From assembly GCF_004354365.1 (NCBI RefSeq), contig NZ_SJCY01000002.1:62001-126000 (forward strand): a stretch of DNA of 64,000 nucleotides, in the 5' to 3' direction. A model generated the notes under the pieces. That model made no database searches and had not been told where the DNA came from. It was given only the letters and a program-made list of their open reading frames with translations. Position numbers and translations under genes: made by a program. Every line of letters starts with the position of its first letter. Position 1 is the first letter of the stretch. Positions 1,330 through 60,414 of the stretch are shown one piece after another. This DNA comes from Pedobacter changchengzhani. Its GTDB lineage: Bacteria > Bacteroidota > Bacteroidia > Sphingobacteriales > Sphingobacteriaceae.

Positions 1330-1409
1330 CTAACTGATAATCAACTGGTTTTTGCTTCACTAGAAAAACGACATTTAACATCTCAACACTCATAACTCAA
1401 CACTCATAT
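1297..1409. repeat. Direct repeat overlapping a gene end, plus heptad array
   Basis: Two imperfect copies of about 22 nt (1297-1320 and 1351-1373, both containing GCTTCnCTAG followed by AAAACGACA) lie 54 bp apart. The first forms the 3' end of the deiminase-like gene. It is followed at 1382-1409 by four consecutive 7-nt units (CTCAACA, CTCATAA, CTCAACA, CTCATAT), directly before the nuclease gene. Confidence 0.75.
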
Positions 1410-1418
1410 CTACAAAAA

Positions 1419-4295
1419 ATGAACCCATTTTTAAAAGAAGTTGCCGAAGATTTAGTTGCCAAGTTTGAACAAAACTTACAAGATTGTGCTATTGTTTTTA
1501 ACAATAAACGACCTGCAGCTTATCTACAAAAACATTTGGCAGATATTTATCAGAAACCTTTTTGGAGTCCTGAAATTTTCACCATTCAAGAGTTTTTTGC
1601 CAAAGCAACCCATTTAAAAATTGCCGATCATTACACGCAGTTTTTTACTTTATACGATTGTTATATCGATTTACTAAAAAAAGAAGGCGTAGAAAAATTA
1701 CCCTCAATTGCTAAATTTCATAATATTGCCCGCATTATTTTGGGCGATTTCAGTCAGATAGATAATGATTTGGTTGATGCCGATCAATTATTCACCGAGC
1801 TTGAAGATATTGCCGTAATTAACCAACAATTTGATTTTTTAACACCGGAACAGAAAGAATTCCTATCTCAGTTTTGGCAATCCTATTCAGAAGGGAAATA
1901 CAAAAAGCAACAAGAACTTTTTATTAAAATGTGGAAACGGATGCCGGTTTTGTATCATTCTTTTCACGAGAAATTAAAAAAAGAAGGTTTTACAACACTT
2001 TCCAGGCTATATAAAAACATCGCTGATGGAAAAAACGATGTAGATTTTACTTCAAAATACGGTGGTAATAAGTTGGCTTTTGTAGGTTTTAACGCGTTAA
2101 GCAAAGCAGAAGCTAAAGCTTTTAAACGTTGGCAAGATGAAGGAAAAGCAATTTTCTATTTCGATACCGACAGCTATTACTTGGAGGATGAAATGCAGGA
2201 AGCCGGCTTGTTTCTTCGCAGAAATTTGAAAATGGGCTTAGTAAATCAATCGAAGAATGAACAGAGCAATTTTAAATCGGAAAAACGAGATGTAAATGTG
2301 TACAAAGTACAAGGGCAAACCGCACAAGCAAAAATTGTAAACGAGCTTTTATCCGCAGAAAAAGAACTTATAGAAAATGGAAAAACAGTTGCATCAACAG
2401 CAATTATTTTGGCAGATGAAAGTTTGTTAATTCCTACAATGCAAACCATTCCATCATCTGTTGGCAACAAAAAAATAGATGTAAACATTACTATGGGTTT
2501 TGGCTTAATTAATTCTTCGTTATACGGATTGGCCGATTTATGGTTGACTGTGCAATCTGAAGTTAATGCTAAAAAAACCATTCAATATTCAAAAGCAGAG
2601 GCTTTTCTGTCGCACCCATTAACCGGGATGAGCGACAAGATGCGCCCGAAAATTTTAGATGCATTAATAAAAGAGCAATTAGTCGAAATTCCTTATCAAA
2701 GGCTTTCCCGACAAGGCGGATTATTTACTTCATTTTTTGAACCCATAAATTCATCAGCCGATGCTGTAAAAACATTGATTATAGTTTTAGATTATGTTTT
2801 GCAACGAGAGTTGGCATCAAAAAAATTGAAGAAAATTGATGCTGAATTATTTGGCAGAACACTACAAGAACTTAATCGCCTACAAGATACGCTACAACAC
2901 CACATCGAAAAATACAATGCCGATATCGAACTCAGTTTTGTACTTTCTATAATTCAGAAATCTCTTTCAACAGTCGCTGTGCCGTTAGAAGGCGATCCAT
3001 TAAATGGTATACAAATTATGGGCTTGCTAGAAAGTAGAAATTTAAATTTCGACAGAGTAATTATTTTGGGCTTAAACGAAGGTGTTGTTCCACAGGCATC
3101 TACCGCAACTACTTTTATTCCAGATAGTTTGCGCCGAGCTTACGGAATGCCAGTTTTAGAGAACCAAGATGCAATTTCTGCCTACATGTTTTATAGGCTT
3201 ATCCAAAGGGCAAAAAACGTCGATTTTGTTTATAACAGCTTAACAGATGAAAGCAATAGTGGCGAACCCTCGCGTTTTATTAAGCAGTTGGAGTACGAAA
3301 GTGGGTTTAATTTTCACCATAAAGAATTGCAATTGGCTATTAAAACCGAGCTAAAAAGAGAAGAAGTTGTGGTAAAATCGCCAAAAGTACAAGCGGTATT
3401 AAATAGATACCTTACCGGACAAAAATACCTATCTGCATCTGCTTTAACTACTTATATATCCAACCCGATCGATTTTTTTTACAAATATATTGCTGGTATT
3501 GAAGAGCCAAAAGAGGTTGAGGAAACGGTTGAAGCTTATAAAGTCGGACTAATTTTACATGACGTGATGGAGCAGTTTTATGCGCAGTTAAAAGCCACAA
3601 ACGCTGAGATTACATCAGATCGAATTAAGGAAAAAAGAACCGATATTCCTAAATTAATTATGCAGGGTTTTGCACAGGTGCTTTATGATAATAGAAACGC
3701 TACTGTACATTTAAATGGCATGCAAAAGGTAATTTACGCCATCGTTTTAGAGTATGTAAACATCATTTTAAAGCAAGATATTGATGATGCTCCTTTTACC
3801 CTAATTGGTTTAGAGCAGAAAGGAAGTATTGGCTTTAACTTTGAAGCCAATGGCTCGCCTCAACAAATTAAATTATTCGGCATTATTGATCGGGTTGATT
3901 TAAAAAATGGAATTTACAGGATTGTAGATTATAAATCAGGTGGCGATAAACTCAAATATTCTACAATTGAAGAGTGCTTCGATACCGATTGCAACAATAT
4001 TAACAAAGCCCTTATACAAACTCTTTTTTATACACATGTTTACGAGCAAATATCTAAAAATGAGCAAGTAGAACCCAATCTTTACATTGTTAAAACCATG
4101 AGCAAGGATGGCATAAATTTCAATGGTAAAGGTGGTTTGCTTAAGGGAGATTTCTTGGCAAACGAGAAACAGATTTTCTTAAATGCTTTGCGAAACAAAC
4201 TAAAAGAGCTTTTCGATTATGATATCCCTTTTAGAGCGAGCCAAGTGCCAGGGAATTATGTTTATAGCATTTATACAACATTGTTTGGGCGGTAA
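1419..4295 (+). CDS. PD-(D/E)XK nuclease family protein, AddB/RecB-like
   Basis: This is a 958-residue protein with a helicase-like N-terminal body and a C-terminal RecB-type nuclease domain. The nuclease part begins near residue 670 (LSASALTTYISNPIDFFYKY), has a conserved His near 713 (LHDVMEQFY), and shows the motif II/III pair DRVD...RIVDYKSG near 824-838, the Asp and Asp-x-Lys of the PD-(D/E)XK fold. The layout resembles AddB-type subunits of double-strand-break repair helicase-nucleases. I see no Walker A motif and no four-Cys iron-sulfur set. The AddA-like partner is not in the window. An exonuclease role in recombination repair is inferred from the family. Confidence 0.85.
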   Translation: MNPFLKEVAEDLVAKFEQNLQDCAIVFNNKRPAAYLQKHLADIYQKPFWSPEIFTIQEFFAKATHLKIADHYTQFFTLYDCYIDLLKKEGVEKLPSIAKFHNIARIILGDFSQIDNDLVDADQLFTELEDIAVINQQFDFLTPEQKEFLSQFWQSYSEGKYKKQQELFIKMWKRMPVLYHSFHEKLKKEGFTTLSRLYKNIADGKNDVDFTSKYGGNKLAFVGFNALSKAEAKAFKRWQDEGKAIFYFDTDSYYLEDEMQEAGLFLRRNLKMGLVNQSKNEQSNFKSEKRDVNVYKVQGQTAQAKIVNELLSAEKELIENGKTVASTAIILADESLLIPTMQTIPSSVGNKKIDVNITMGFGLINSSLYGLADLWLTVQSEVNAKKTIQYSKAEAFLSHPLTGMSDKMRPKILDALIKEQLVEIPYQRLSRQGGLFTSFFEPINSSADAVKTLIIVLDYVLQRELASKKLKKIDAELFGRTLQELNRLQDTLQHHIEKYNADIELSFVLSIIQKSLSTVAVPLEGDPLNGIQIMGLLESRNLNFDRVIILGLNEGVVPQASTATTFIPDSLRRAYGMPVLENQDAISAYMFYRLIQRAKNVDFVYNSLTDESNSGEPSRFIKQLEYESGFNFHHKELQLAIKTELKREEVVVKSPKVQAVLNRYLTGQKYLSASALTTYISNPIDFFYKYIAGIEEPKEVEETVEAYKVGLILHDVMEQFYAQLKATNAEITSDRIKEKRTDIPKLIMQGFAQVLYDNRNATVHLNGMQKVIYAIVLEYVNIILKQDIDDAPFTLIGLEQKGSIGFNFEANGSPQQIKLFGIIDRVDLKNGIYRIVDYKSGGDKLKYSTIEECFDTDCNNINKALIQTLFYTHVYEQISKNEQVEPNLYIVKTMSKDGINFNGKGGLLKGDFLANEKQIFLNALRNKLKELFDYDIPFRASQVPGNYVYSIYTTLFGR

Positions 4296-6349: not shown

Positions 6350-6476
6350 TTTGAAAATCAATACCCGTAGTCCTTCGGTTCCGTCAGTCCCGCCATTCAT
6401 TTCAATCTTTTAACACTAAATCCCCAACGGGGATTTAGCGTTAAAAGTATTTCCATTTCTGTCGGGTTTATTTAAC
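6350..6476 (-). repeat. CCCG/CGGG structured spacer element, copy A1
   Basis: Read on the minus strand it starts with TAAACCCGACAGAAATGGAA, has a 20-bp nearly perfect central hairpin (6407-6447, arms CTTTTAACnCTAAATCCCC), then GGCGGGACTG and a tail resembling GGACTACnGnnTTGATTT. The 5' block matches copy C near 60312 at 20 of 21 positions, while the central hairpin is unrelated. Confidence 0.75.
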
Positions 6477-6620: not shown

Positions 6621-6752
6621 AACCTAAGTTATTTAAACGGGATTGAAGCGATATCTTTTTACCCGCCCCTTTCAGGGCATTTAAGGGTAAAAAATTTAGC
6701 GTAAAGCCCGACTAACATTAAAAAGAACTACTGCATTGGCTTTTCCTAAAAA
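6621..6752 (+). repeat. CCCG/CGGG structured spacer element, copy A2
   Basis: The 5' block CTAAGTTATTTAAACGGGAT aligns with copy B (CAAGTTATCTAAACCCGGAT). The centre holds nested hairpins (TTTTTACCC at 6656-6664 with GGGTAAAAA at 6685-6693, and GCCC / GGGC inside). The tail AAAGAACTACTGCATTGGCT aligns with the tails of copies B and C. Confidence 0.75.
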
Positions 6753-6872: not shown

Positions 6873-9191
6873 ATGTTAGCACACCATAAAACCATTGCAA
6901 CCGAATTAAATGTTGCCGAAAAACAAGTAACCGCAACCGTAACTTTATTAGATGAAGGGGCAACTGTACCTTTCATATCGCGTTATCGTAAAGAAGTAAC
7001 CGGCAGTTTAGATGAAGTGCAAGTTGCTGCAATACGCGATAGAGTTTTACAATTACGCGATTTAGATAAGCGCCGCGAAGCGATTTTAAAATCGATGACA
7101 GAACTTGGAAAACTAAACCCAGAACTTGAGAAAAAAATTACCGAAGCCGAAACTATATCGCTTTTAGAAGATATTTATTTGCCTTACAAGCCTAAACGCA
7201 AAACACGTGCAAGCATGGCTAAAGAAAAAGGTTTAGAGCCGTTGGCTTTACAAATTTTCGATCAAAATAGTTTCGATTTAGATGCTGAAGCAGACAAATT
7301 TATAGATGCGGAGAAAGGTGTAAATACTTTAGAAGAAGCCTTATCAGGCGCTAGAGATATTATTGCCGAAATGATTTCGGAAAATGCAGAGGCACGCACC
7401 AAAATGCGTACTTTTTTTCAGGAAAAAGCTGTTTTTAAATCGGAAGTAATAAAAGGAAAAGAAGAAGAAGGCATTAAATATAAAGATTATTTCGAGTGGA
7501 ATGAACCTGTAAAAACCGCTGCTTCGCACCGGGTTTTGGCCATGCGCCGAGGCGAAAAAGAATTGATTTTACGTTTAGATGCACTCCCTCCCGCTGAGGA
7601 TGCAATTGTAATTTTGGAGAATCAGTTCATTTTATCCAGTAATTCAGCTTCAAAACAAGTTCAACAAGCTTTAGAAGATGGCTATAAACGTTTGTTAGAA
7701 CCGGCAATGGAAACCGAACTTCGGGTGTTAACCAAGCAAAAAGCAGATGTAGAAGCCATTCGTGTTTTTGCCGAAAATGCTCGCCAATTATTATTATCGG
7801 CACCAATGGGACAAAAAAACGTGTTGGCCATCGATCCCGGTTTCCGTACAGGTTGCAAAGTAGTGTGTTTAGATAAGCAAGGGCAGTTATTAGAAAATAC
7901 GGCAATTTACCCACATACCGGACAAGGAAACGTTAAAAATGCCGGATTTACCATCGAGCAACTTTGCGAAAAACACGAAATTGAAGCCATCGCCATTGGC
8001 AACGGAACGGCAGGTAGAGAAACAGAAACTTTTATTCGTGGTTTAAATTTACCAAATGTTACCATTGTTATGGTAAATGAAAGTGGCGCATCAATTTATT
8101 CTGCTTCTGATGTGGCTCGTGAGGAATTTCCTACACAAGACATTACCGTTCGTGGTGCAGTTTCCATCGGTCGTAGGTTGATGGATCCATTGGCAGAATT
8201 GGTAAAAATCGATCCAAAATCCATCGGTGTTGGACAATACCAACATGATGTAGATCAAAATAAATTACAAACCAGCTTAGATGATACCGTAATGAGTGCG
8301 GTAAATGCGGTTGGTGTAGAATTAAATACAGCATCCAAACAAATTTTGGCTTACGTTTCTGGCTTAGGACCAACTTTGGCGCAAAATATTATAGATTATA
8401 GAAATACTAACGGCGCTTTTAAAAACCGTGAAAGCTTAAAAAAAGTACCGCGTTTGGGCGATAAAGCTTATGAACAAGCAGCAGGTTTTTTGCGCATTCG
8501 CAATGCAGAAAATGTTTTAGATACAAGCGGTGTGCACCCAGAACGCTATGCTGTGGTAAATAAAATGGCGAAAGATTTAGGCACAACAGTTTCTGCGTTG
8601 ATGAAAGATACGCAATTGCAAAAACAGATTAAACCACACCAATACGTTACAGCTGAAATCGGTTTACCAACGCTTAATGACATTTTAAAAGAATTGGCAA
8701 AACCAGGTCGTGACCCGCGTGAGCAATTTGAAAGCTTTAGTTTTACTGATGGCGTAAATGAAATTGCTGATTTAAGAACTGGAATGAAATTGCCAGGAAT
8801 TGTAACCAATATCACCAATTTCGGTGCTTTTGTAGATATAGGCGTTCATCAAGACGGTTTGGTTCATACCAGTCAGTTGGCGAATCGTTTTGTGGCCAAT
8901 CCGAATGATATTGTTAAAGTTCAACAAAGGGTGGAAGTTACGGTGATGGAAATTGATGTGGCTCGTAAAAGGATTTCTTTATCGATGAAAAGTGAAGGGG
9001 GTCCGAAAGACGGAAAGTCAGTAAGTCGGGAAGTTAAAGAGCAGAAGCCAAAACAGAATGTTGTTGGAGCAAAGAACAAAGAGCAAGGAACAAAAGGTTT
9101 TAACGCTCATGCTCAACCTCGTCCTCAGCCTAAAAATGCAGACGGTGATTTGCAGGAGAAATTAGCGAAATTGAAGGGGATATTTAAATAA
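6873..9191 (+). CDS. tex: Tex family RNA-binding transcription accessory protein
   Basis: This 772-residue protein has the full Tex architecture: a helical N-terminal domain, a YqgF/RNase H-like domain (VLAIDPGFRTGCKVV near residue 320), helix-hairpin-helix segments (GLGPTLAQNII, LKKVPRLGDKAYEQAAGF) and an S1 RNA-binding domain near 634-706 (TNFGAFVDIGVHQDGLVHTS). Tex binds nucleic acid and associates with the transcription machinery. After the S1 domain comes a low-complexity basic tail whose DNA contains four 7-nt units (9070-9097), which looks like a spacer repeat read in frame. The ATG at 6873 follows a TAGCTTTG -7-like element by 18 nt. Confidence 0.95.
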   Translation: MLAHHKTIATELNVAEKQVTATVTLLDEGATVPFISRYRKEVTGSLDEVQVAAIRDRVLQLRDLDKRREAILKSMTELGKLNPELEKKITEAETISLLEDIYLPYKPKRKTRASMAKEKGLEPLALQIFDQNSFDLDAEADKFIDAEKGVNTLEEALSGARDIIAEMISENAEARTKMRTFFQEKAVFKSEVIKGKEEEGIKYKDYFEWNEPVKTAASHRVLAMRRGEKELILRLDALPPAEDAIVILENQFILSSNSASKQVQQALEDGYKRLLEPAMETELRVLTKQKADVEAIRVFAENARQLLLSAPMGQKNVLAIDPGFRTGCKVVCLDKQGQLLENTAIYPHTGQGNVKNAGFTIEQLCEKHEIEAIAIGNGTAGRETETFIRGLNLPNVTIVMVNESGASIYSASDVAREEFPTQDITVRGAVSIGRRLMDPLAELVKIDPKSIGVGQYQHDVDQNKLQTSLDDTVMSAVNAVGVELNTASKQILAYVSGLGPTLAQNIIDYRNTNGAFKNRESLKKVPRLGDKAYEQAAGFLRIRNAENVLDTSGVHPERYAVVNKMAKDLGTTVSALMKDTQLQKQIKPHQYVTAEIGLPTLNDILKELAKPGRDPREQFESFSFTDGVNEIADLRTGMKLPGIVTNITNFGAFVDIGVHQDGLVHTSQLANRFVANPNDIVKVQQRVEVTVMEIDVARKRISLSMKSEGGPKDGKSVSREVKEQKPKQNVVGAKNKEQGTKGFNAHAQPRPQPKNADGDLQEKLAKLKGIFK
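9070..9097 (+). repeat. Four heptanucleotide units inside the tex 3' end
   Basis: Consecutive units CAAAGAA, CAAAGAG, CAAGGAA and CAAAAGG are read through in the tex frame. They encode part of the basic tail after the S1 domain. Confidence 0.7.
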
Positions 9192-9874: not shown

Positions 9875-10362
9875 TAAACAAATATAATTAATAATGTGTA
9901 TAACTACAAAGGATGATTAATTTATACACGCCCTGAATAAACCCTGAGCATCTCATTGTCATCAGTTTATTATTCATTATATTGGAAATTATATTTAATT
10001 TCGCCAATCGTCCTCGTTTTTAACGAGGATGACTGCGAAAGGCGATTTTACAGCCCTCGATATTTGCTCAACCCCAAGTTATCTAAACCCGGATTGAAGT
10101 GGAAATCCTTTTTTGCTACCCTTAACTTAATAGATTGCTTCGTCGTTCCTCCTCGCAATGACGAAAATTTGAGGGTATGACAAAAGTTCAAAAAAGATTG
10201 GAACGAAAAGCGGGACTGAATTATCAAAAGAATTACTGCAATTGATTTACTAAAAAAGGAACTGTACATTTTTTTAGATGCTGAAATAAATTCAGCAAGA
10301 CGACTGTTGCACGGAACTTAAAACCTATAACTTATTACTTTCAACTTTTTTGCAATCAACTA
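9875..10362. other. Gene-free spacer upstream of rplM with nested repeats
   Basis: I see no credible gene. Contents in order: AT-rich sequence; a hairpin (TCCTCGTT at 10011-10018 with AACGAGGA at 10022-10029); the CCCG/CGGG element copy B (10071-10257) with a nested GTCATTGCGAGG-type repeat (10132-10163 on the minus strand); and four 7-nt units (AACCTAT, AACTTAT, TACTTTC, AACTTTT) at 10322-10349. Confidence 0.6.
10071..10257 (+). repeat. CCCG/CGGG structured spacer element, copy B with nested repeat
   Basis: The 5' block is CTAAACCCGGATTGAAGTGG and the 3' block is AAAAGCGGGACTGAATTATC followed by AAAAGAATTACTGCAATTGA. The centre (TACCCTTAA...TTGAGGGTA) is opened by an inverted copy of the common spacer repeat CGTCATTGCGAGGAGG (10132-10163). 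Ends and tail align with copies A2 and C. Confidence 0.78.
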
Positions 10363-10449: not shown

Positions 10450-10893
10450 GTGAATACGTTAAGTTACAAAACTGTCTCTGCCAATGCTAAAACTGTAAAC
10501 AAACAGTGGATTGTTGTTGATGCACAAGGCGAGATTTTGGGGCGCTTGTCATCGAAGATCGCTATGATCATCCGTGGTAAAAACAAGCCTGAGTACACCC
10601 CACACGTAGATTGCGGAGATAACGTTATCGTTATCAATGCAGAAAAGGTTAAATTGACAGGAAACAAATTCAGCGAAAAGCAGTATGTTTCTTACACTGG
10701 TTATCCAGGTGGTCAACGTTTTATTTCTCCTAAGGAGTTAATGGAAAAACACCCTAAACGTGTAATTGAGAAAGCAGTAAGAGGTATGTTACCTAAAACT
10801 AAATTGGGCAAAAAATTGTACACAAATCTTTTTGTGTATGCAGGTGAAACTCATCCGCACTCGGCTCAATCTCCAAAAACCATTAAACTTTAA
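10450..10893 (+). CDS. rplM: 50S ribosomal protein L13
   Basis: At 147 residues this is a full-length uL13, an early-assembly 23S rRNA-binding protein. Diagnostic blocks are WIVVDAQGEILGRLSSKIA, GKNKPEYTPHVDCGD and GMLPKTKLGKKLYTNLFVYAGE, with the C-terminal HPHSAQSP. The start is GTG (10450): there is no ATG at the family N-terminus and the frame upstream is not conserved. It leads the rplM-rpsI pair, 3 nt from rpsI, with a consensus promoter 57 nt upstream of the start. Confidence 0.96.
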   Translation: MNTLSYKTVSANAKTVNKQWIVVDAQGEILGRLSSKIAMIIRGKNKPEYTPHVDCGDNVIVINAEKVKLTGNKFSEKQYVSYTGYPGGQRFISPKELMEKHPKRVIEKAVRGMLPKTKLGKKLYTNLFVYAGETHPHSAQSPKTIKL

Positions 10894-11301: not shown

Positions 11302-12210
11302 ATGGCAAGAACAACTTATCAAGACTTATTGGATGCAGGTGTACACTTTGGTCACCTTACCCGTAAATGGAATCCAAAAATGGCTCCTTACATTTTCATG
11401 GAGCGTAATGGAATTCACATTATAGATTTAAATAAAACGTTAACAAAAACTGAAGAAGCTGCGGCAGCGATTAAACAAATCGTAAAATCAGGACGTAAAG
11501 TTTTATTTGTATCAACAAAAAAACAAGCAAAAGGAATCGTAGCTGAACAAGCTAAAAAAGTAAATATGCCTTTCGTAACCGAACGTTGGTTAGGTGGTAT
11601 GTTAACTAACTTCGCTACTGTACGTAAGTCAATCAAAAAGATGGTTACCATCGATAAGATGACTAAAGACGGTACATATTCGATCCTTTCGAAAAAAGAA
11701 CGTTTAATGATTCAACGTGAACGTATTAAATTAGAATCACTTTTGGGTGGTATTTCTGACTTAAATCGTTTACCTGCAGCTTTATTCTTAATTGATGTTA
11801 AGAAAGAGCACATTGCAGTAACTGAAGCGTTAAAATTAAACATTCCAACTTTTGCAATGGTTGATACTAACTCTGATCCTTCTAACATCGATTTCCCAAT
11901 CCCAGCGAATGATGATGCTACTAAATCAATCTCTTTAATTACTGATATTATTATCAAAGCAATTGAAGAAGGTTTAGATGAGCGCAAACGCGAAAAGGAT
12001 GACGAAGCTGAAAAAGAAGCAGTAGCAGCAAAAGTTGCAGCTGACGCTCCTGAGGTTAAAGAACCTAGAGCAGCTGGCGAAAAAAGACCAACTACTAAAA
12101 AGGTAACAGCAGAAGCTCCAGTAGCTGAAGCAAAGGAAGAAGCGAAAGCTGAACCAGTTGTTGCAGAAACAGTAGTTGCTTCATCAGAAGAACCTACAAA
12201 AGAAGATTAA
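11302..12210 (+). CDS. rpsB: 30S ribosomal protein S2
   Basis: A uS2 protein of 302 residues. The core (residues 1-230) has all family blocks: LLDAGVHFGHLTRKWNPKM, IIDLNKT, FVSTKKQA, WLGGMLTNFATV and the PTFAMVDTNSDP segment. The remaining 70 or so residues are an Ala/Glu/Lys/Val-rich extension absent from E. coli S2 (241 residues) but common in Bacteroidota. The gene is preceded by a complete AGGAGG, unusual in this lineage. It sits in the classical rpsB-tsf order. Confidence 0.96.
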   Translation: MARTTYQDLLDAGVHFGHLTRKWNPKMAPYIFMERNGIHIIDLNKTLTKTEEAAAAIKQIVKSGRKVLFVSTKKQAKGIVAEQAKKVNMPFVTERWLGGMLTNFATVRKSIKKMVTIDKMTKDGTYSILSKKERLMIQRERIKLESLLGGISDLNRLPAALFLIDVKKEHIAVTEALKLNIPTFAMVDTNSDPSNIDFPIPANDDATKSISLITDIIIKAIEEGLDERKREKDDEAEKEAVAAKVAADAPEVKEPRAAGEKRPTTKKVTAEAPVAEAKEEAKAEPVVAETVVASSEEPTKED

Positions 12211-12216
12211 ATTTAA

Positions 12217-12282
12217 GTTATGAGTTACGAGTTGTATGTTATGGGTAAAACCCCGTAACCTATAACCCGTAACTTTTAACAT
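12217..12282. repeat. Heptad-unit palindrome between rpsB and tsf
   Basis: The left arm is built of 7-nt units (GTTATGA, GTTACGA, GTTGTAT, GTTATGG) and the right arm of GTAACCT, ATAACCC, GTAACTT, TTAACAT. The arms 12217-12242 and 12255-12280 are reverse-complementary at 20 of 26 positions around a 12-nt loop. It separates rpsB from tsf and could modulate read-through. Confidence 0.7.
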
Positions 12283-12307
12283 TTATAAAACTTATAAAAT
12301 TTTAAAA

Positions 12308-13153
12308 ATGTCAACAGTACAAATTACAGCAGCAGATGTAAATAAACTACGCCAACAAACTGGCGCTGGTATGATGGATTGCAAAAAAGCTTTGGTAGAA
12401 GCTAATGGTGATTTCGAAGCTGCAGTTGATTTATTGCGTAAAAAAGGTCAAAAAGTATCAGCTGCCCGTTCTGGCAACGCTACTTCAGAAGGTATTGTGT
12501 TAATTAGTGTATCAGCAGATGGTACAAATGGTAAATTAGTTGCTTTGGCTTGCGAAACTGAGCCAGTTTCTAAAGTTGAAGATTTCCGCAATTTAGCGCA
12601 GGCTATCTTAACAGCTGCAGTTGACCATAACGCATCTTCTACTGAAGCGTTATCAGCAATTGCTTTAGCAGACGGACGTACCGTTGCTGAGACGATAACT
12701 GAATTAACTGGTAAAATTGGAGAAAAAATGGTTATCCAAAATTACGAAAACGTAACTGGCGAGAAAATCGTTTCTTATGTACACTCTAACGGAAAAATGG
12801 GTGTTTTAGTTGCATTCGAAGGTGCTAACGGTGTAGATATTACTGAAGCTGGTAAAGATGTTGCAATGCAAATTGCTGCAATGAACCCAGTTGCTGTTGA
12901 TAAAGACGGTGTTGACCCTGCAACTATTGAGCGTGAAATCGAAATTGCTAAAGATGTTATCCGTGCTGAAGGTAAACCAGAAGAAATGGTTGAAAAAATC
13001 GCAGCTGGTAAATTGAATAAATTCTACAAAGACAGTACTTTATTAAACCAAGAGTTTGTTAAAGATAGCTCGGTAGATATTCGTAAATTTTTAGATAATA
13101 CAGTTAAAGGTTTAACTGTAACTGCTTTTAAACGCGTACAATTAGGTGCATAA
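12308..13153 (+). CDS. tsf: Elongation factor Ts
   Basis: EF-Ts, the nucleotide exchange factor of EF-Tu, 281 residues. The N-terminal UBA-like region has the signature LRQQTGAGMMDCKKALVEANGD and the following LRKKG. The core has ACETEPVSKVEDF (normally ETDFVARN-like, the EF-Tu-contact segment), VSYVHSNGKMGVLV and the MQIAAMNPVAV block. It lies 97 nt after rpsB, separated by the heptad palindrome, and is closed by a strong bidirectional terminator. Confidence 0.96.
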   Translation: MSTVQITAADVNKLRQQTGAGMMDCKKALVEANGDFEAAVDLLRKKGQKVSAARSGNATSEGIVLISVSADGTNGKLVALACETEPVSKVEDFRNLAQAILTAAVDHNASSTEALSAIALADGRTVAETITELTGKIGEKMVIQNYENVTGEKIVSYVHSNGKMGVLVAFEGANGVDITEAGKDVAMQIAAMNPVAVDKDGVDPATIEREIEIAKDVIRAEGKPEEMVEKIAAGKLNKFYKDSTLLNQEFVKDSSVDIRKFLDNTVKGLTVTAFKRVQLGA

Positions 13154-26614: not shown

Positions 26615-26642
26615 AACCGTCGCTAATATGGCGCTAAGCTAC

Positions 26643-27932
26643 ATGAAATATCCGAGTATTAGTAATAAATTACCTATTTTAAATAGACAAAACTATATTA
26701 AACAGCTAAAAAACAATTCTTTAAGTGTTTTTAATGCCAATGATGAGTTCCCGAGAAGTGGTGACCAAACGTTTTCTTTTAAACAAAATGCCGATTTATT
26801 TTATTTATCAGGGATAGATCAAGAGCAGACAATATTGCTGTTATACCCGGATTGTCCTAATCCTTTGTATAGAGAAGTCCTATTTTTAAGACAGACAAAC
26901 GATTTTATAAAAGTGTGGGAGGGTTATAAATATACCAAAGAGCAGGCGCAATTAGCCTCGGGCATAAACAATATATTTTGGTTAGAAGATTTTGAGAACA
27001 TCTTACACAGTATTGTTCACTATGCTGACTATATCTACCTAAACACTAATGAGAACAATAAATACACAGATTCCATACCTTACAGAGATATTCGTTTTAT
27101 AGAACAGATGCGCTCGAAATATCCATTGCATCATTATGAACGTGCTGCACCAATTATGCGCAACTTGAGGGCTATAAAATCTGAAATTGAAATTTCTCTC
27201 ACCCAAAAGGCTTGCTCAATTACTCGCGATGCTTTTTTGAGGGTATTAAAATTTGTTAAACCTAGCGTTAAAGAATATGAAATTGAAGCTGAAATTATTC
27301 ACGAATTCATTCGTCAAGGCGCAACAGGCCATGCATACCCACCAATTATAGCATCAGGTCACAATGCAAATATTCTTCATTATGGCGATAACAATCAGCA
27401 ATGCAAAAAAGGTGATGTAATTTTATTTGATTTCGGTGCAGAATACGCAAATTATAATGCAGATATGAGCAGGGCAATTCCTGTAAATGGAAAGTTTACC
27501 AAAAGGCAAAAAGAAGTATATAATGCAGTTTTACATGTAATGAAAGAGGCAAGCAAATTATTAGTTGATGGAATTACGGGGAAAATTTACCACGAACAGG
27601 TGGGCGAATTAATGACGGAGCAACTTATAAATCTCAAACTACTTACTTTAGATGATGTAAAAAACCAAAAGAGCAGTTATCCAGCGTACAAAAAATATTT
27701 TATGCACGGCACTTCTCATCACTTAGGGTTGGATTTGCACGATTTTGGGGGAAGATATACACCTTTCGCAAATGGGAATATATTAACTGTAGAACCGGGT
27801 ATTTATATCCCCGAGGAAGGCTTAGGTATTCGCCTAGAAAACAATATTTTAATTACTGCAAGCGGAAATATTGATTTAATGGCCGATATACCTATAGAAA
27901 CCGAAGAAATTGAGGAGATAATGAACCAATAA
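26643..27932 (+). CDS. pepP: Xaa-Pro aminopeptidase (aminopeptidase P)
   Basis: A pita-bread metallopeptidase of 429 residues that removes N-terminal residues preceding proline. Two-metal ligands are visible: FDFGAEYANYNADMSR (two Asp), GTSHHLGLDLHD (His), VEPGIYIPEEGLGIRLEN (Glu) and a preceding EGR-type segment. The N-terminal creatinase-like domain is intact (FLSGIDQEQTILLLYPD-like). Two in-frame ATGs are possible, 26628 and 26643. I prefer the second because the promoter -7 element ends at 26614. It converges with meaB. Confidence 0.93.
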   Translation: MKYPSISNKLPILNRQNYIKQLKNNSLSVFNANDEFPRSGDQTFSFKQNADLFYLSGIDQEQTILLLYPDCPNPLYREVLFLRQTNDFIKVWEGYKYTKEQAQLASGINNIFWLEDFENILHSIVHYADYIYLNTNENNKYTDSIPYRDIRFIEQMRSKYPLHHYERAAPIMRNLRAIKSEIEISLTQKACSITRDAFLRVLKFVKPSVKEYEIEAEIIHEFIRQGATGHAYPPIIASGHNANILHYGDNNQQCKKGDVILFDFGAEYANYNADMSRAIPVNGKFTKRQKEVYNAVLHVMKEASKLLVDGITGKIYHEQVGELMTEQLINLKLLTLDDVKNQKSSYPAYKKYFMHGTSHHLGLDLHDFGGRYTPFANGNILTVEPGIYIPEEGLGIRLENNILITASGNIDLMADIPIETEEIEEIMNQ

Positions 27933-27942
27933 ATCGGTTTTT

Positions 27943-27970
27943 AGTTGGCAATTGGAAGTTTTAAGTTTGT
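27943..27970 (+). repeat. Heptad units between pepP and meaB
   Basis: Four degenerate 7-nt units: AGTTGGC, AATTGGA, AGTTTTA and AGTTTGT. They lie in the 80-bp convergent gap and resemble the AGTTGGC units at 46877-46941. Confidence 0.45.
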
Positions 27971-41027: not shown

Positions 41028-44000
41028 TTATAACTTTCTAACAATTTCTACTTGTTCGTAAGCTTCTACAATATCACCAACTTCAATATTATTAAAGTTT
41101 TGGATGTTTAAACCACACTCGTAACCTTTAAGCACTTCTTTAACGTCATCTTTAAAACGTTTTAATGATGCAAGTTCACCTGTGTAAATTACAACACCAT
41201 CTCTAACGATACGGATTTTGCTATTACGGGTAATCTTACCATCTAATACCATACAACCTGCAATGGTACCCACTTTCGTAATTTTAAAGGTTTCGCGAAT
41301 TTCAACGTTAGCCACAATTTTCTCTTCAAATTCTGGATCCAACATACCTTCCATTGCCGATTTAATCTCGTTTATTGCATCGTAAATGATAGAATATAAA
41401 CGGATATCAATTTGCTCTTGCTCTGCCAATTTACGTGCACCCGTTGATGGACGAACTTGGAAACCAATAATAATCGCATCAGAAGCCGAAGCTAATAATA
41501 CATCAGATTCTGAAATTTGACCAACACCTTTACTAATGATATTGATTTGAATTTGCTCCGTAGAAAGTTTTAATAATGAATCGGCTAATGCTTCGATAGA
41601 TCCATCCACATCACCTTTAACAATGATGTTAAGTTCTTTAAAGTTGCCAATTGCTAAACGACGACCAATTTCATCCAAAGTGATGTGTTTCTGCGTACGC
41701 AAACCTTGCTCACGCTGTAACTGCATACGTTTGTTTGCAATATCACGCGCTTCTGTTTCACTTTCTAATGCATTGAAACGATCACCCGCTGTTGGTGCAC
41801 CTTGCATACCTAAAACTTGTACCGGTTGCGATGGACCAGCAGACTCAACCTTTTGTCCGCGTTCGTTAGTTAACGCTTTTACACGTCCACTAAAGCTACC
41901 TGCTAAAATTGGATCACCAACTCTTAACGTACCAGCTTGAACCAATACGGTGGTAACAATACCACGGCCCTTATCTAAAGCTGATTCTATTACCGAACCT
42001 GTTGCTCTCTTATTAGGGTTTGCCTTAAGTTCTAATAATTCGGCTTCTAATAATACTTTATCTAAAAGCAAATCTACATTTAAGCCTGTTTTACTCGATA
42101 TTTCTTGAGATTGGAATTTACCACCCCAATCTTCAACTAAAATGTTCATTACCGATAACTGTTCGCGCACTTTATCAGAATTTGCACCTGGTTTATCCAC
42201 TTTTGTAAAAGCAAATACCAATGGTACGCCTGCTGCCTGTGCGTGGTTTATTGCTTCTTTTGTTTGAGGCATTACCGCATCATCCGCAGCAATAACAATA
42301 ATTGCAATATCTGCAACCTTAGCACCACGTGCACGCATCGCTGTAAAGGCTTCGTGACCTGGTGTATCTAAGAAAGTTACTTTTTTACCTGTTGGTGTTG
42401 TTACCATATAAGCACCAATGTGCTGTGTAATTCCACCTGCTTCACCTGCAACAACATTTGCTTTACGGATATAATCCAGCAATGAAGTTTTACCGTGATC
42501 CACGTGACCCATAATCGTAACAACTGGTGCTCTTTCGATTAAGTCTTCTACTGCATCCTCTTCCTCAATTACATTCTCCTCATCTTCATCAGGCTTAACG
42601 AATTGAATTTCGTAGCCAAACTCATCAGCAACAATGGTTAAAGTTTCAGCATCTAAACGTTGGTTAATTGAAACAAACATACCAAGACTCATACATGTAC
42701 CAATAATTTTGGTTACCTGTACATCCATCATGCTTGCCAACTCATTTGCAGTAACAAATTCTGTTACTTTTAATATTTTCGATTGAGATTCTAGCTCATT
42801 TGCCGCTTCTTCAGCATTATATGCAACATCATCACGTTTCTGACGACGTAATTTAGCACGCTGCGCAAATTTACCCGATTTACCTGCTCCACTTAAACGA
42901 GCAAGTGTTGCTTTAATCTGATCTTGAATTTCTTTCTCTGTAGGTTCTCCTTTAGGTACGCCTGGTGTGGCATTTCTATTTTGGAAACCCGGTCTTGCAT
43001 TATTTCTATTTCCCTGATAAGGTGTTCCACTCGCTGGTCTGTTGCCTTGATAAGGCGTACCGCTAGCTGGCCTGTTTCCTTGATAAGGTGTACGAGGTTG
43101 CCCTGGTGTACCGCCTGGCGCTTGCCCTGCTGTATTGCCACCTGGCTGACCATGACCGCCGTGTTGACCAGGCGCTCCCGGTGCTTTTTTACGCTTACGT
43201 TTACGTTTAGCTGCTTCACTATCGCTAGATGATGCAACCGGACCGTTTCTACGATCTGGTGTAGTTGGCAAAACAATTTTACCTATAATATTTGGTCCAG
43301 AAAGTTTTACCGAACGCGCCTTCATCACTTCTGGCTCCGCAGGTTTTACATCTTTCTTTACCTCAATCGGTTTTTCTTCTATTTTAGGCTGCTCCACAAC
43401 TGGCTTTTCGGCAATTGGCTTTTTAACTTCAGGAGATTTTTCAGCAGGCTTTTCTACTTTTTTAACCTCAATAGGCTTCTCTTCAACTTTTGCTTGTTCA
43501 ACAACTGTTGGCTTTACCTCTGTTACAGGTTTAATAACCGGTGCATCTTCTTTTTTAGAAGGACGAGTTTTAGCATTTAGATCATTCAAATTGATCTTAC
43601 CTACAACTTTAACACCAGGCAAATTACCTTCTTCAGCTGCAACTTCCGTTTTAGTTTCTTTAGCTGTTTCTACAACAGCCGGAACTTCCACCTTTGGAAC
43701 TTCTACTTTCGGAACTTCAACGATAGGAACTTCTACTTTAGGAAGCGCTGCTTTAGGCACATCTACTTTTGGTAATTCTACTTTCGGTTTCTCCGGAGGA
43801 CTGAATGATTGTGCGTTCTTAATCAGAATCTCTTCTTTTTCAAAATCTACTTTTCGCGCAGGTGCTTCTACAGGTTTTTCAACTTCAGATTCATCACGAC
43901 GAATTTTGCCAATCACGATCTGCTTAGCTTCTTCTCTAACGATTTTATCTCCTTGATACTCTTTTAATAAGGCAGCATACATTTCGCCAGAAAGTTTAAA

Positions 44001-44117
44001 CATAGGGCTCTTCTCGGCAGAGAATCCCTTTTTGCTTAGAAATTCTACGGCCGTACCCATGCCTATATTAAGTTCCTTAATAGCTTTAATTAAAATTATT
44101 GGTTTGTCGTCTGACAT
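41028..44117 (-). CDS. infB: Translation initiation factor IF-2
   Basis: A 1029-residue IF-2, the GTPase that brings initiator tRNA to the 30S subunit. The C-terminal core has G1 GHVDHGKTS near 535, DTPGHEAF (G3), and TKVDKP (G4, more often NKID/NKMD), then the C1/C2 domains. The first 400 residues are a low-complexity extension: repeated PKVEVP units near 115-150, Lys/Pro/Glu repeats, a basic KRKRKRKK cluster, and three tandem TPYQGNR units. A long N-terminus is usual in Bacteroidota. AGGAG lies 4 nt before the ATG. It is the last gene of rimP-nusA-infB. Confidence 0.96.
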
Positions 44118-46876: not shown

Positions 46877-46941
46877 CAGTTGGCAGTTGGCGGTTTTCAG
46901 TTAATAAACCGAGAAGTGCAAGCTGCCAACCGCCAACTACC
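46877..46941. repeat. Heptad-unit palindrome between convergent genes
   Basis: Left units are CAGTTGG, CAGTTGG, CGGTTTT, CAGTTAA; right units are AGCTGCC, AACCGCC, AACTACC. Arms 46878-46894 and 46922-46938 pair at 14 of 17 positions. The right arm overlaps the end of the acyl-CoA dehydrogenase gene, and the whole could act as a shared terminator. Confidence 0.65.
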
Positions 46942-49756: not shown

Positions 49757-49784
49757 ATCTCAATACTCAAATCTCAAATCTCAA
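49757..49784 (+). repeat. Four heptad units between panD and panC
   Basis: Consecutive units ATCTCAA, TACTCAA, ATCTCAA, ATCTCAA, immediately before the end of panC. They are close in sequence to the CTCAnnn units at 1382-1409. Confidence 0.7.
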
Positions 49785-49793
49785 ACCTTAATG

Positions 49794-50633
49794 CTATTTT
49801 ATTATCATGTTATCAATTAGTCGTGTTTTGCCAACTTTTGCGGCTACTAAAGCAACTAAGTGATGTTCGTTTTTAGATTGGGCTGGCTGAAGATTATCTC
49901 CATTGGCAATCGTAAAATAATCTAATTCTACCCCGTCAATAAGCTCAAATAACGCTTTTGCGCTTTCTTCAAGTTTCCGAAGCGAATTATCGTTAAAATG
50001 CGCTACTACAAACTTTAATGCTTTGCTCAATACTAAACTGTTTTCTCTATCTAAACTCAATAAATGAATATTTCTGCTGCTCATTGCCAAGCCATCGCTT
50101 TCTCGTATTATGGGGCATGTTACAATTTGTATAGGCAAATGAAAATGGGCCACCATATTTTTAATCATCAGCACTTGCTGAAAATCCTTCTGACCAAACA
50201 TTGCAATATCGGGTTTTACCGCATCGAACAATTTTTTAACAATTTGGGTTACTCCTTGATAGTGTCCCTTTCTAAATTCGCCCTCTAACAGAAATTCTGC
50301 GGGGCCCAAATCGATGTGCCAATGCTCCTCTTTAGGGTACATTTCATCAACCGACGGCATAAATACCGCATCACATCCTGCGTTCTTTAGCATTTCAAGA
50401 TCGTGCTCAATCGGTCTTGGGTATTTTTCTAAATCTTTTAAATCGGTAAACTGTGTTGGGTTTACAAATATGCTGCATATAATTATATCGGCGCTTTGCT
50501 TTGCCAAATCAATTAATGAGATATGCCCATTATGTAGCGCGCCCATTGTTGGCACCAATGCTACCTTTTTACCTATTGCTTTAAGAGGGCTAACAAAGGT
50601 TTCTAGTGCTATTTTAGTCTTTAATATTTCCAA
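49794..50633 (-). CDS. panC: Pantothenate synthetase
   Basis: A 279-residue ligase that joins pantoate and beta-alanine through a pantoyl-adenylate. The ATP-binding PTMGALHNGHISLI (with the HxGH motif) is near residue 30. SIFVNPTQF, the YPR block, FGQKDFQQVLMIKNMV and MSSRNIHL are all present. It is divergent from the GT5-like gene and upstream of panD. The panB gene is not in the window. Confidence 0.97.
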   Translation of the reverse strand: MEILKTKIALETFVSPLKAIGKKVALVPTMGALHNGHISLIDLAKQSADIIICSIFVNPTQFTDLKDLEKYPRPIEHDLEMLKNAGCDAVFMPSVDEMYPKEEHWHIDLGPAEFLLEGEFRKGHYQGVTQIVKKLFDAVKPDIAMFGQKDFQQVLMIKNMVAHFHLPIQIVTCPIIRESDGLAMSSRNIHLLSLDRENSLVLSKALKFVVAHFNDNSLRKLEESAKALFELIDGVELDYFTIANGDNLQPAQSKNEHHLVALVAAKVGKTRLIDNMIIK

Positions 50634-60302: not shown

Positions 60303-60414
60303 TTTTAACTACCTAAACCCGATAGAAATGGAAAGCCCCAGATTTTTCATCTGGGCTTGTAATGGAAAGCGGGAGGGTACGCTAATAGTAGCAGTGCAAT
60401 TGCTTTTCTAAAAA
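60303..60414 (+). repeat. CCCG/CGGG structured spacer element, copy C
   Basis: The most compact copy. The 5' block is CTAAACCCGATAGAAATGGA, the central hairpin is AGCC-CCAGAT / ATCTG-GGCT, then AATGGAAAGCGGGAGGGTAC, and the tail AGTGCAATTGCTTTTCTAAA aligns with copies A2 and B. Confidence 0.8.

Follow-up and report, generated by a model that had tools for sequence, protein, structure and literature searches.

Degenerate arrays of 7-nt units (heptads) recur in the spacers of Pedobacter. They are polarised relative to the adjoining genes, they differ between species, and their local copies differ by whole units. In the spacer between rpsB and tsf, two facing arrays form a hairpin which, across much of the genus, shows covariation, a bias of G-U over A-C and conserved anchors. 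The earlier note on this DNA, which had described the arrays and the hairpin, was incomplete: it missed both the polarity relative to stops and starts and the RNA covariation at rpsB-tsf in Pedobacter. We give about even chances to a reading in two layers, in which the heptads were born of slippage and the rpsB-tsf hairpin was recruited as an mRNA element in Pedobacter.

The window is the whole 64,000-nt stretch of DNA analysed. Its genus was confirmed through two congeners, G034 and G059, which have 99% and 96% of their sampled 60-mers in common with named Pedobacter contigs. At seven sites, proposed earlier to be spacer arrays of 7-nt units, the best lag-7 run was compared with those in 1000 first-order Markov shuffles of the local stretch. 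A lag-7 excess local to the site was obtained at all seven (p ≤ 0.011): 1382 (score 11, p 0.005), 9070 (score 12, p 0.004), 10322 (score 13, p 0.004), 12217 (score 11, p 0.011), 27943 (score 9, p 0.011), 46877 (score 11, p 0.003) and 49757 (score 18, p < 0.001). The weakest is 27943, where lag 14 gave p 0.405. For lags 5, 6, 8–11 and 13, the maxima were 9 at lag 6 (site 9070) and, at 12217, 13 at lag 9 and 8 at lag 8; a period-9 repeat occupies 12271–12307, directly 3′ of the rpsB-tsf hairpin. One of the seven is not a spacer array, since the period-7 stretch 9070–9097 (+ strand) is coding, within ORF 6873–9191 (772 aa); its counterpart DNA in a relative is likewise repetitive.

Among the others, a solitary, C-rich and G-free array at 1371–1411 (+) has its last base 7 nt upstream of ORF 1419–4295, and a C-rich array at 10315–10348 (+) lies in a 575-nt divergent gap, 101 nt upstream of ORF 10450–10893. 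The array at 49759–49791 (− strand), G-rich in transcript sense, begins 2 nt past the stop of ORF 49794–50633 (−). The weak array at 27943–27970 (+) is found 3′ of the stop of ORF 26628–27932, in a gap called convergent, and scores below the threshold of our array list. At 46877–46941 (no strand assigned), inverted heptad arrays with a CAGTTGG phrase run across a 62-nt gap between ORFs called convergent and fold as a hairpin (z −5.8). The period of the arrays is strict; their wording is variable and different between the listed arrays. The window also holds four matches to Flavo-1 RNA above the Rfam gathering score, at 6382–6473 (−), 6631–6717 (+), 10082–10221 (+) and 60311–60380 (+), and a large ORF (41028–44117) with tandem repeats of 33-nt and 15-nt units at 43015–43093 and 43681–43784.

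Over the noncoding DNA of the whole window, 5 arrays were counted at lag 7 against 0.9 in shuffles and 4 against 0.8 at lag 14; no excess was found at any other lag with the same cut. The genome of the window was then represented by 644 kb not chosen for arrays, with a score cut of 11 and ten shuffles. Its noncoding DNA gave 38 arrays at lag 7 against 5.6 (largest shuffle 9), 31 against 3.1 at lag 14 and 18 against 4.3 at lag 21, which bears out the claim that 7-nt periodicity in spacers exceeds that of shuffled controls. No other noncoding excess comes near that of lag 7 and its multiples; lags 16 (10 against 3.8), 18 (9 against 4.7) and 22 (6 against 3.8) stand slightly over the largest shuffle. 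Coding DNA (567 kb) contained 18 lag-7 arrays, and there multiples of three dominate. A lag-7 excess was absent from a small sample (16 kb) of E. coli noncoding DNA (2 against 1.0 and 0 against 0.0).

The recurrence in related genomes that the earlier note had expected was also found: a five-unit, ACT-anchored array is present with period 7 in 94 of 148 Bacteroidota genomes, compared with 42 for period 8 and 7 for period 6. The controls for this pattern search were the period 6 and period 8 patterns rather than the reversed pattern, which is unclean at period 7 because ACT-anchored arrays often hold TCA at the same period. Within a single genus (g43), matches per genome range from 0 to 504, overlapping ones counted. 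Using a tsf query of 281 aa, relatives were collected as 80 named Bacteroidota loci around tsf. These gave 52 lag-7 arrays against 13.5 in shuffles with a loose cut, and 23 against 2.0 with a strict one (17 of 21 matches), lag 8 being also raised (6 against 0.5). In some families, octads seem to stand in for heptads or to occur beside them: degenerate arrays of 8-nt period, many of them ACT-anchored, were seen at locus L029 (6543–6630), where they form a facing pair, and in genomes G141, G106, G094, G078 and others. An enrichment of heptads in the gap upstream of tsf in the 80 loci (8 of 43, against 23 of 339 other tandem gaps, p 0.014) was set aside, the question having been posed post hoc and two of the eight (L028 and L061) being A/T-rich.

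The arrays change between species. Those of 1382 and 49757 are missing from the counterpart gaps in the relative G006, where the counterpart of 46877 carries different inverted repeats with different words. The 10322 array is reworded in G006 and missing in G024; for 27943, no counterpart was found among the relatives compared. Similar local copies differ by whole units, with 2, 4 and 6 units at locus L193 and 67 against 81 nt at L213. Given this variation between species and the whole-unit steps between local copies, the arrays probably originate by slippage. Indels between related Pedobacter showed no peak at 7 nt (2 of 169 noncoding indels) in pairs at most 92% identical. We also observed nested direct duplications of about 65–200 bp containing heptad arrays (L206 9840–10270, L213 6480–6705, L193 12256–12860), as if the arrays were seeding larger tandem duplications.

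REP elements combine a conserved head tetranucleotide with a palindrome. Could the heptad hairpins be mobile elements of this sort, spread by Y1 (RAYT-type) transposases? The copy number of Y1_Tnp genes does correlate with the number of array matches (Spearman 0.48, 148 genomes), and the rpsB-tsf hairpin has stretches of 75–79% similarity at three other places in the genome. The distribution of arrays around 20 Y1 genes argues the other way: 3 were found in 13.8 kb of flanking gaps against 32 in 36.8 kb further off, a lower density beside the Y1 genes, and a flanking gap with an array was seen at 3 of the 20 loci. Moreover, of the 42 genomes in which Y1 is absent, 8 reach 10 or more array matches. 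Mobilisation by RAYT/Y1 was rejected on these two grounds; the idea is largely refuted and we consider it hardly credible.

The arrays carry an orientation relative to genes. Over all Pedobacter stretches, 20 array ends lie no more than 15 nt from a start, 18 of them C-rich and 2 G-rich; the same distance from stops takes in 28 G-rich ends and 5 C-rich ones. Stretches L110–L124 had been selected for holding AGTT arrays, and the stretches not chosen for arrays were counted apart: starts gave 9 C-rich to 0 G-rich, stops 9 G-rich to 2 C-rich. In the 80 Bacteroidota loci, all 12 array ends within 15 nt past stops are G-rich; before starts the count is 8 C-rich to 3 G-rich (binomial p 0.23), which is weak alone. 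Many solitary arrays finish 0–12 nt upstream of start codons, distances which may lean toward the array given that ORF bounds follow the longest-ORF rule and that many heptads contain stop codons. Every array was scored against both flanking genes, arrays in convergent gaps may enter the stop list twice, and a run covering the two arms was rated by its net excess of G over C. Array ends more than 40 nt away have the G-rich:C-rich ratio reversed (11:5 and 26:10 to starts, 1:7 and 10:29 from stops), which is what a far arm pairing with the near one would give.

The same order is seen in hairpins. Heptad hairpins are G-first by 13:1 in the genome of the window, against 40:46 for other hairpins, and by 13:4 in the 80 loci, against 74:63; the heptad hairpins of two Flavobacteriaceae (L068 and L085) are C-first exceptions. 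The rule is not proven to be heptad-specific, because non-heptad hairpins in other Pedobacter stretches, outside rpsB-tsf, are also G-first (28:10, with G-U to A-C at 39:14).

Base composition was rejected as the cause of polarity, being too slight in array-free gaps: C 0.144 and G 0.152 after stops, which is near balance, and C 0.135 and G 0.101 before starts. For paired arrays the polarity is strand-symmetric because a palindrome is the same on either strand; for solitary arrays a cause tied to the gene is required. Avoidance of AUG and of structure near starts would be a candidate, both being avoided there in Bacteroidetes according to PMC6847099. G-rich words such as ATGAGTT would be unfavourable near starts because they would place AUGs there.

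At rpsB-tsf, the rpsB ORF (ribosomal protein S2) spans 11302–12210 (+, 302 aa), an rpsB motif being found upstream of tsf in relatives, and tsf (elongation factor Ts, PF00889 match) spans 12308–13153 (+), its ATG lying 27 nt downstream of the hairpin. The 5′ arm, 12217–12245 (+), consists of G-rich heptads with GTT every 7 nt; it is defined by the RNA fold and by covariation in 17 Pedobacter spacers. A loop follows at 12246–12251 (+, from the RNA fold), then the 3′ arm at 12252–12280 (+), made of C-rich, G-poor heptads with AAC every 7 nt (fold, and lag-7 array 12256–12285). The stretch 12217–12280 folds at −32.2 kcal/mol (z −7.5), a value equalled by 0 of 200 shuffles; the opposite strand folds worse (−27.5, z −5.3). 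The proposal that both arms of 12217–12282 are heptad arrays forming a hairpin in a ribosomal-protein operon is thus confirmed. No U-tract or intrinsic terminator site was found on the + strand at 12217–12307, promoter-like sites near rpsB-tsf were not above the count in shuffles, and no Rfam match above the gathering score was obtained at the hairpin. The earlier statement that terminators do not explain the arrays holds only in part: the window's own hairpin has no U-tract, but Dyadobacter and E. coli have a terminator-like hairpin in the same spacer, and a run of at least five T lies downstream in 25 of 56 Pedobacter spacers.

These 56 rpsB-tsf spacers came from 60 genomes, G020, G055, G059 and G035 (without an rpsB match) being left out. 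The hairpin is present across most of them, while other arrays vary between species. In 43 of the 56, three or more 7-nt slots are filled by GTT or AAC, as against 0.5% of shuffles. Among the 13 without the exact anchor rule, 6 keep a shifted hairpin and 7 (G003, G007, G021, G029, G032, G040 and G047) are without a heptad hairpin, having other hairpins or none, one spacer being 26 nt long. In Mucilaginibacter, Hymenobacter and Fibrella, too, this spacer contains heptad arrays or hairpins, differently worded.

For covariation, 17 of the 56 spacers were picked by eye for hairpin and diversity (alignment A1), which omits a 17-member clade of the G009 type, the 7 spacers that lack a heptad hairpin and a further 15, most of which are near-duplicates; the fold scored was derived from this same alignment. 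In these 17 spacers, 14 of the 21 pairs have changes on both sides, two-sided cells number 47 against 17.5 when shuffled, and 93.5% of cells are paired against 36–44% on sliding. A weaker covariation measure, the number of further pair types, gave 31 against 27.2, a level reached by 15 of 500 shuffles. Of 353 cells, 45 are G-U and 8 A-C, the sign expected of selection on the RNA of this strand. Heptad hairpins in tandem gaps outside rpsB-tsf have G-U:A-C ratios of 12:12 in the genome of the window and 25:30 in the 80 loci, and ordinary hairpins a modest bias (48:30 and 75:51, respectively). Among the rpsB-tsf cores by which gaps were labelled for this comparison, one (G021) measures 11 nt, so one of the gaps of the 80 loci is probably mislabelled. 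Because heptad hairpins elsewhere show no G-U bias, the support for RNA-level selection is confined to rpsB-tsf.

These ratios bear on a purely neutral account, in which slippage makes arrays that have no function anywhere and template-switch correction of DNA has preserved the palindrome of an old array at rpsB-tsf. The lack of G-U over A-C asymmetry in the other heptad hairpins is what such an account would have, as are arrays that vary by species and local copies that differ in whole units. The G-U excess at rpsB-tsf would not be expected from correction at the DNA level, and neutrality sits badly with a hairpin kept in most of 56 spacers while other arrays vary by species, or with arrays polarised relative to genes. 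We consider this account somewhat unlikely.

Conservation along the stem suggests another possibility. Mean entropy is 0.18 bit in the GTT slots and 1.13 in the intervening columns, so that slots at 7-nt spacing are far less variable than equally paired neighbours. The arrays might then be protein binding sites in a 7-nt register, recognised by a cold-shock or S1-like RNA binder and kept by selection for binding. The position of many solitary arrays just ahead of start codons would suit such sites, and so would the TAACTGA arrays that MacGregor 2015 (PMC4679880) describes just upstream of starts and in ribosomal-protein operons. Yet the same spacer has different words in different genera, the anchors lie inside a paired stem where a single-strand binder would not reach them, and the 17 aligned sequences behind the entropy values were chosen by eye. 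Binding as the general cause is, in our judgement, distinctly unlikely.

The two-layer reading would run as follows. Duplication or slippage, stepping by 7 nt (by 8 in some lineages), would create degenerate heptad arrays in spacers; their wording would drift, and gains and losses would be quick. Arrays would persist mainly where tolerated: G-rich in the sense strand shortly past stops, and C-rich and G-poor shortly ahead of starts. In a facing pair, the order from the stop to the next start would thus be G arm, loop and C arm. In Pedobacter, one heptad hairpin may have been taken over as the mRNA hairpin between the two cistrons of the rpsB-tsf operon, where Dyadobacter and E. coli have a terminator-like hairpin; selection on the RNA fold would have maintained it since, keeping GUU/AAC anchors every 7 nt. 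Its probable job would be to set the tsf:rpsB ratio, through partial attenuation or through protection of the upstream mRNA end. Attenuation is weakened in the window, the hairpin having no U-tract, and end protection or another role is as likely.

A bolder proposal joins two ideas. A single process working in 7-nt (sometimes 8-nt) steps would give gene-oriented polarity in unrelated phyla whatever the words, and the GUU/AAC register at rpsB-tsf would be a site for a putative RNA-binding factor that sets EF-Ts against S2 in Pedobacter. If true, polarity would belong to the process (for example one linked to transcription or RNA) rather than to quadruplexes. Taken jointly, we hold these two ideas to be very doubtful.

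Repeats of 7-nt units have been described for many years in cyanobacteria and other bacteria, with no established function. A search of the literature by title and abstract opening found no heptad arrays of Pedobacter. In the survey of Mrazek 2007, as cited in PMC4692102 and PMC4679880, long simple sequence repeats have an optimum at 7 nt, heptamers are over-represented, and the contact length of DNA polymerase is proposed as the cause; that survey concerns runs longer than expected, whereas the Pedobacter arrays are short and made of degenerate units. At the position of the window's hairpin, the E. coli rpsB-tsf spacer has a GC hairpin followed by five T, and Dyadobacter is similar; the window's version has heptad arms and no U-tract, and so differs from an intrinsic terminator, with its GC-rich stem and direct U-tract.

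Closer in kind are the TAACTGA direct repeats of Beggiatoaceae, Cyanobacteria and five Bacteroidetes (PMC4679880), for which a cold-shock or S1-like RNA binder was proposed. Both systems have 7-nt units, a forward AACT-type word just ahead of starts and a presence in ribosomal-protein operons. The published repeats use one fixed word and, according to that report, include one inverted repeat among 170 sets, whereas Pedobacter words are degenerate and facing pairs frequent. The direct-repeat pattern TAACTGATAACTGA had 0 matches in 1.0 Mb of the window's genome examined.

The earlier note had likened the arrays to the heptanucleotide repeats of cyanobacteria, and they are indeed of the kind published there. 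The GGGAATC and GGGGA(C/T)T repeats of Xanthomonas and Nostoc, the nearest case in print, are described in PMC4692102 as heterogeneous 7-nt units, mostly four per array and mostly intergenic, often in facing pairs, varying in length and wording between close species, and for the most part transcribed. Their G-rich strand is sense near stops and antisense near starts, and the one G-tract per unit forms quadruplexes in vitro. Shared with Pedobacter are degenerate intergenic 7-nt units, variation between species, facing pairs capable of stem-loops and the same G-rich polarity, L068 and L085 excepted. Most Pedobacter arrays are without a G-tract per unit (a four-unit GGG pattern has 12 matches, overlapping ones counted, in 1.0 Mb of the window's genome) and are for that reason not classed with the Xanthomonas/Nostoc type. 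RNA covariation, assessed here, is not reported in the available text of PMC4692102. A published polarity rule thus recurs in another phylum, where most units have no quadruplex-forming G-tract; this argues against quadruplexes as the cause of polarity. In addition, rpsB-tsf in Pedobacter offers a specific heptad hairpin, seemingly held by RNA selection, on which the old question of function becomes testable in a culturable genus.
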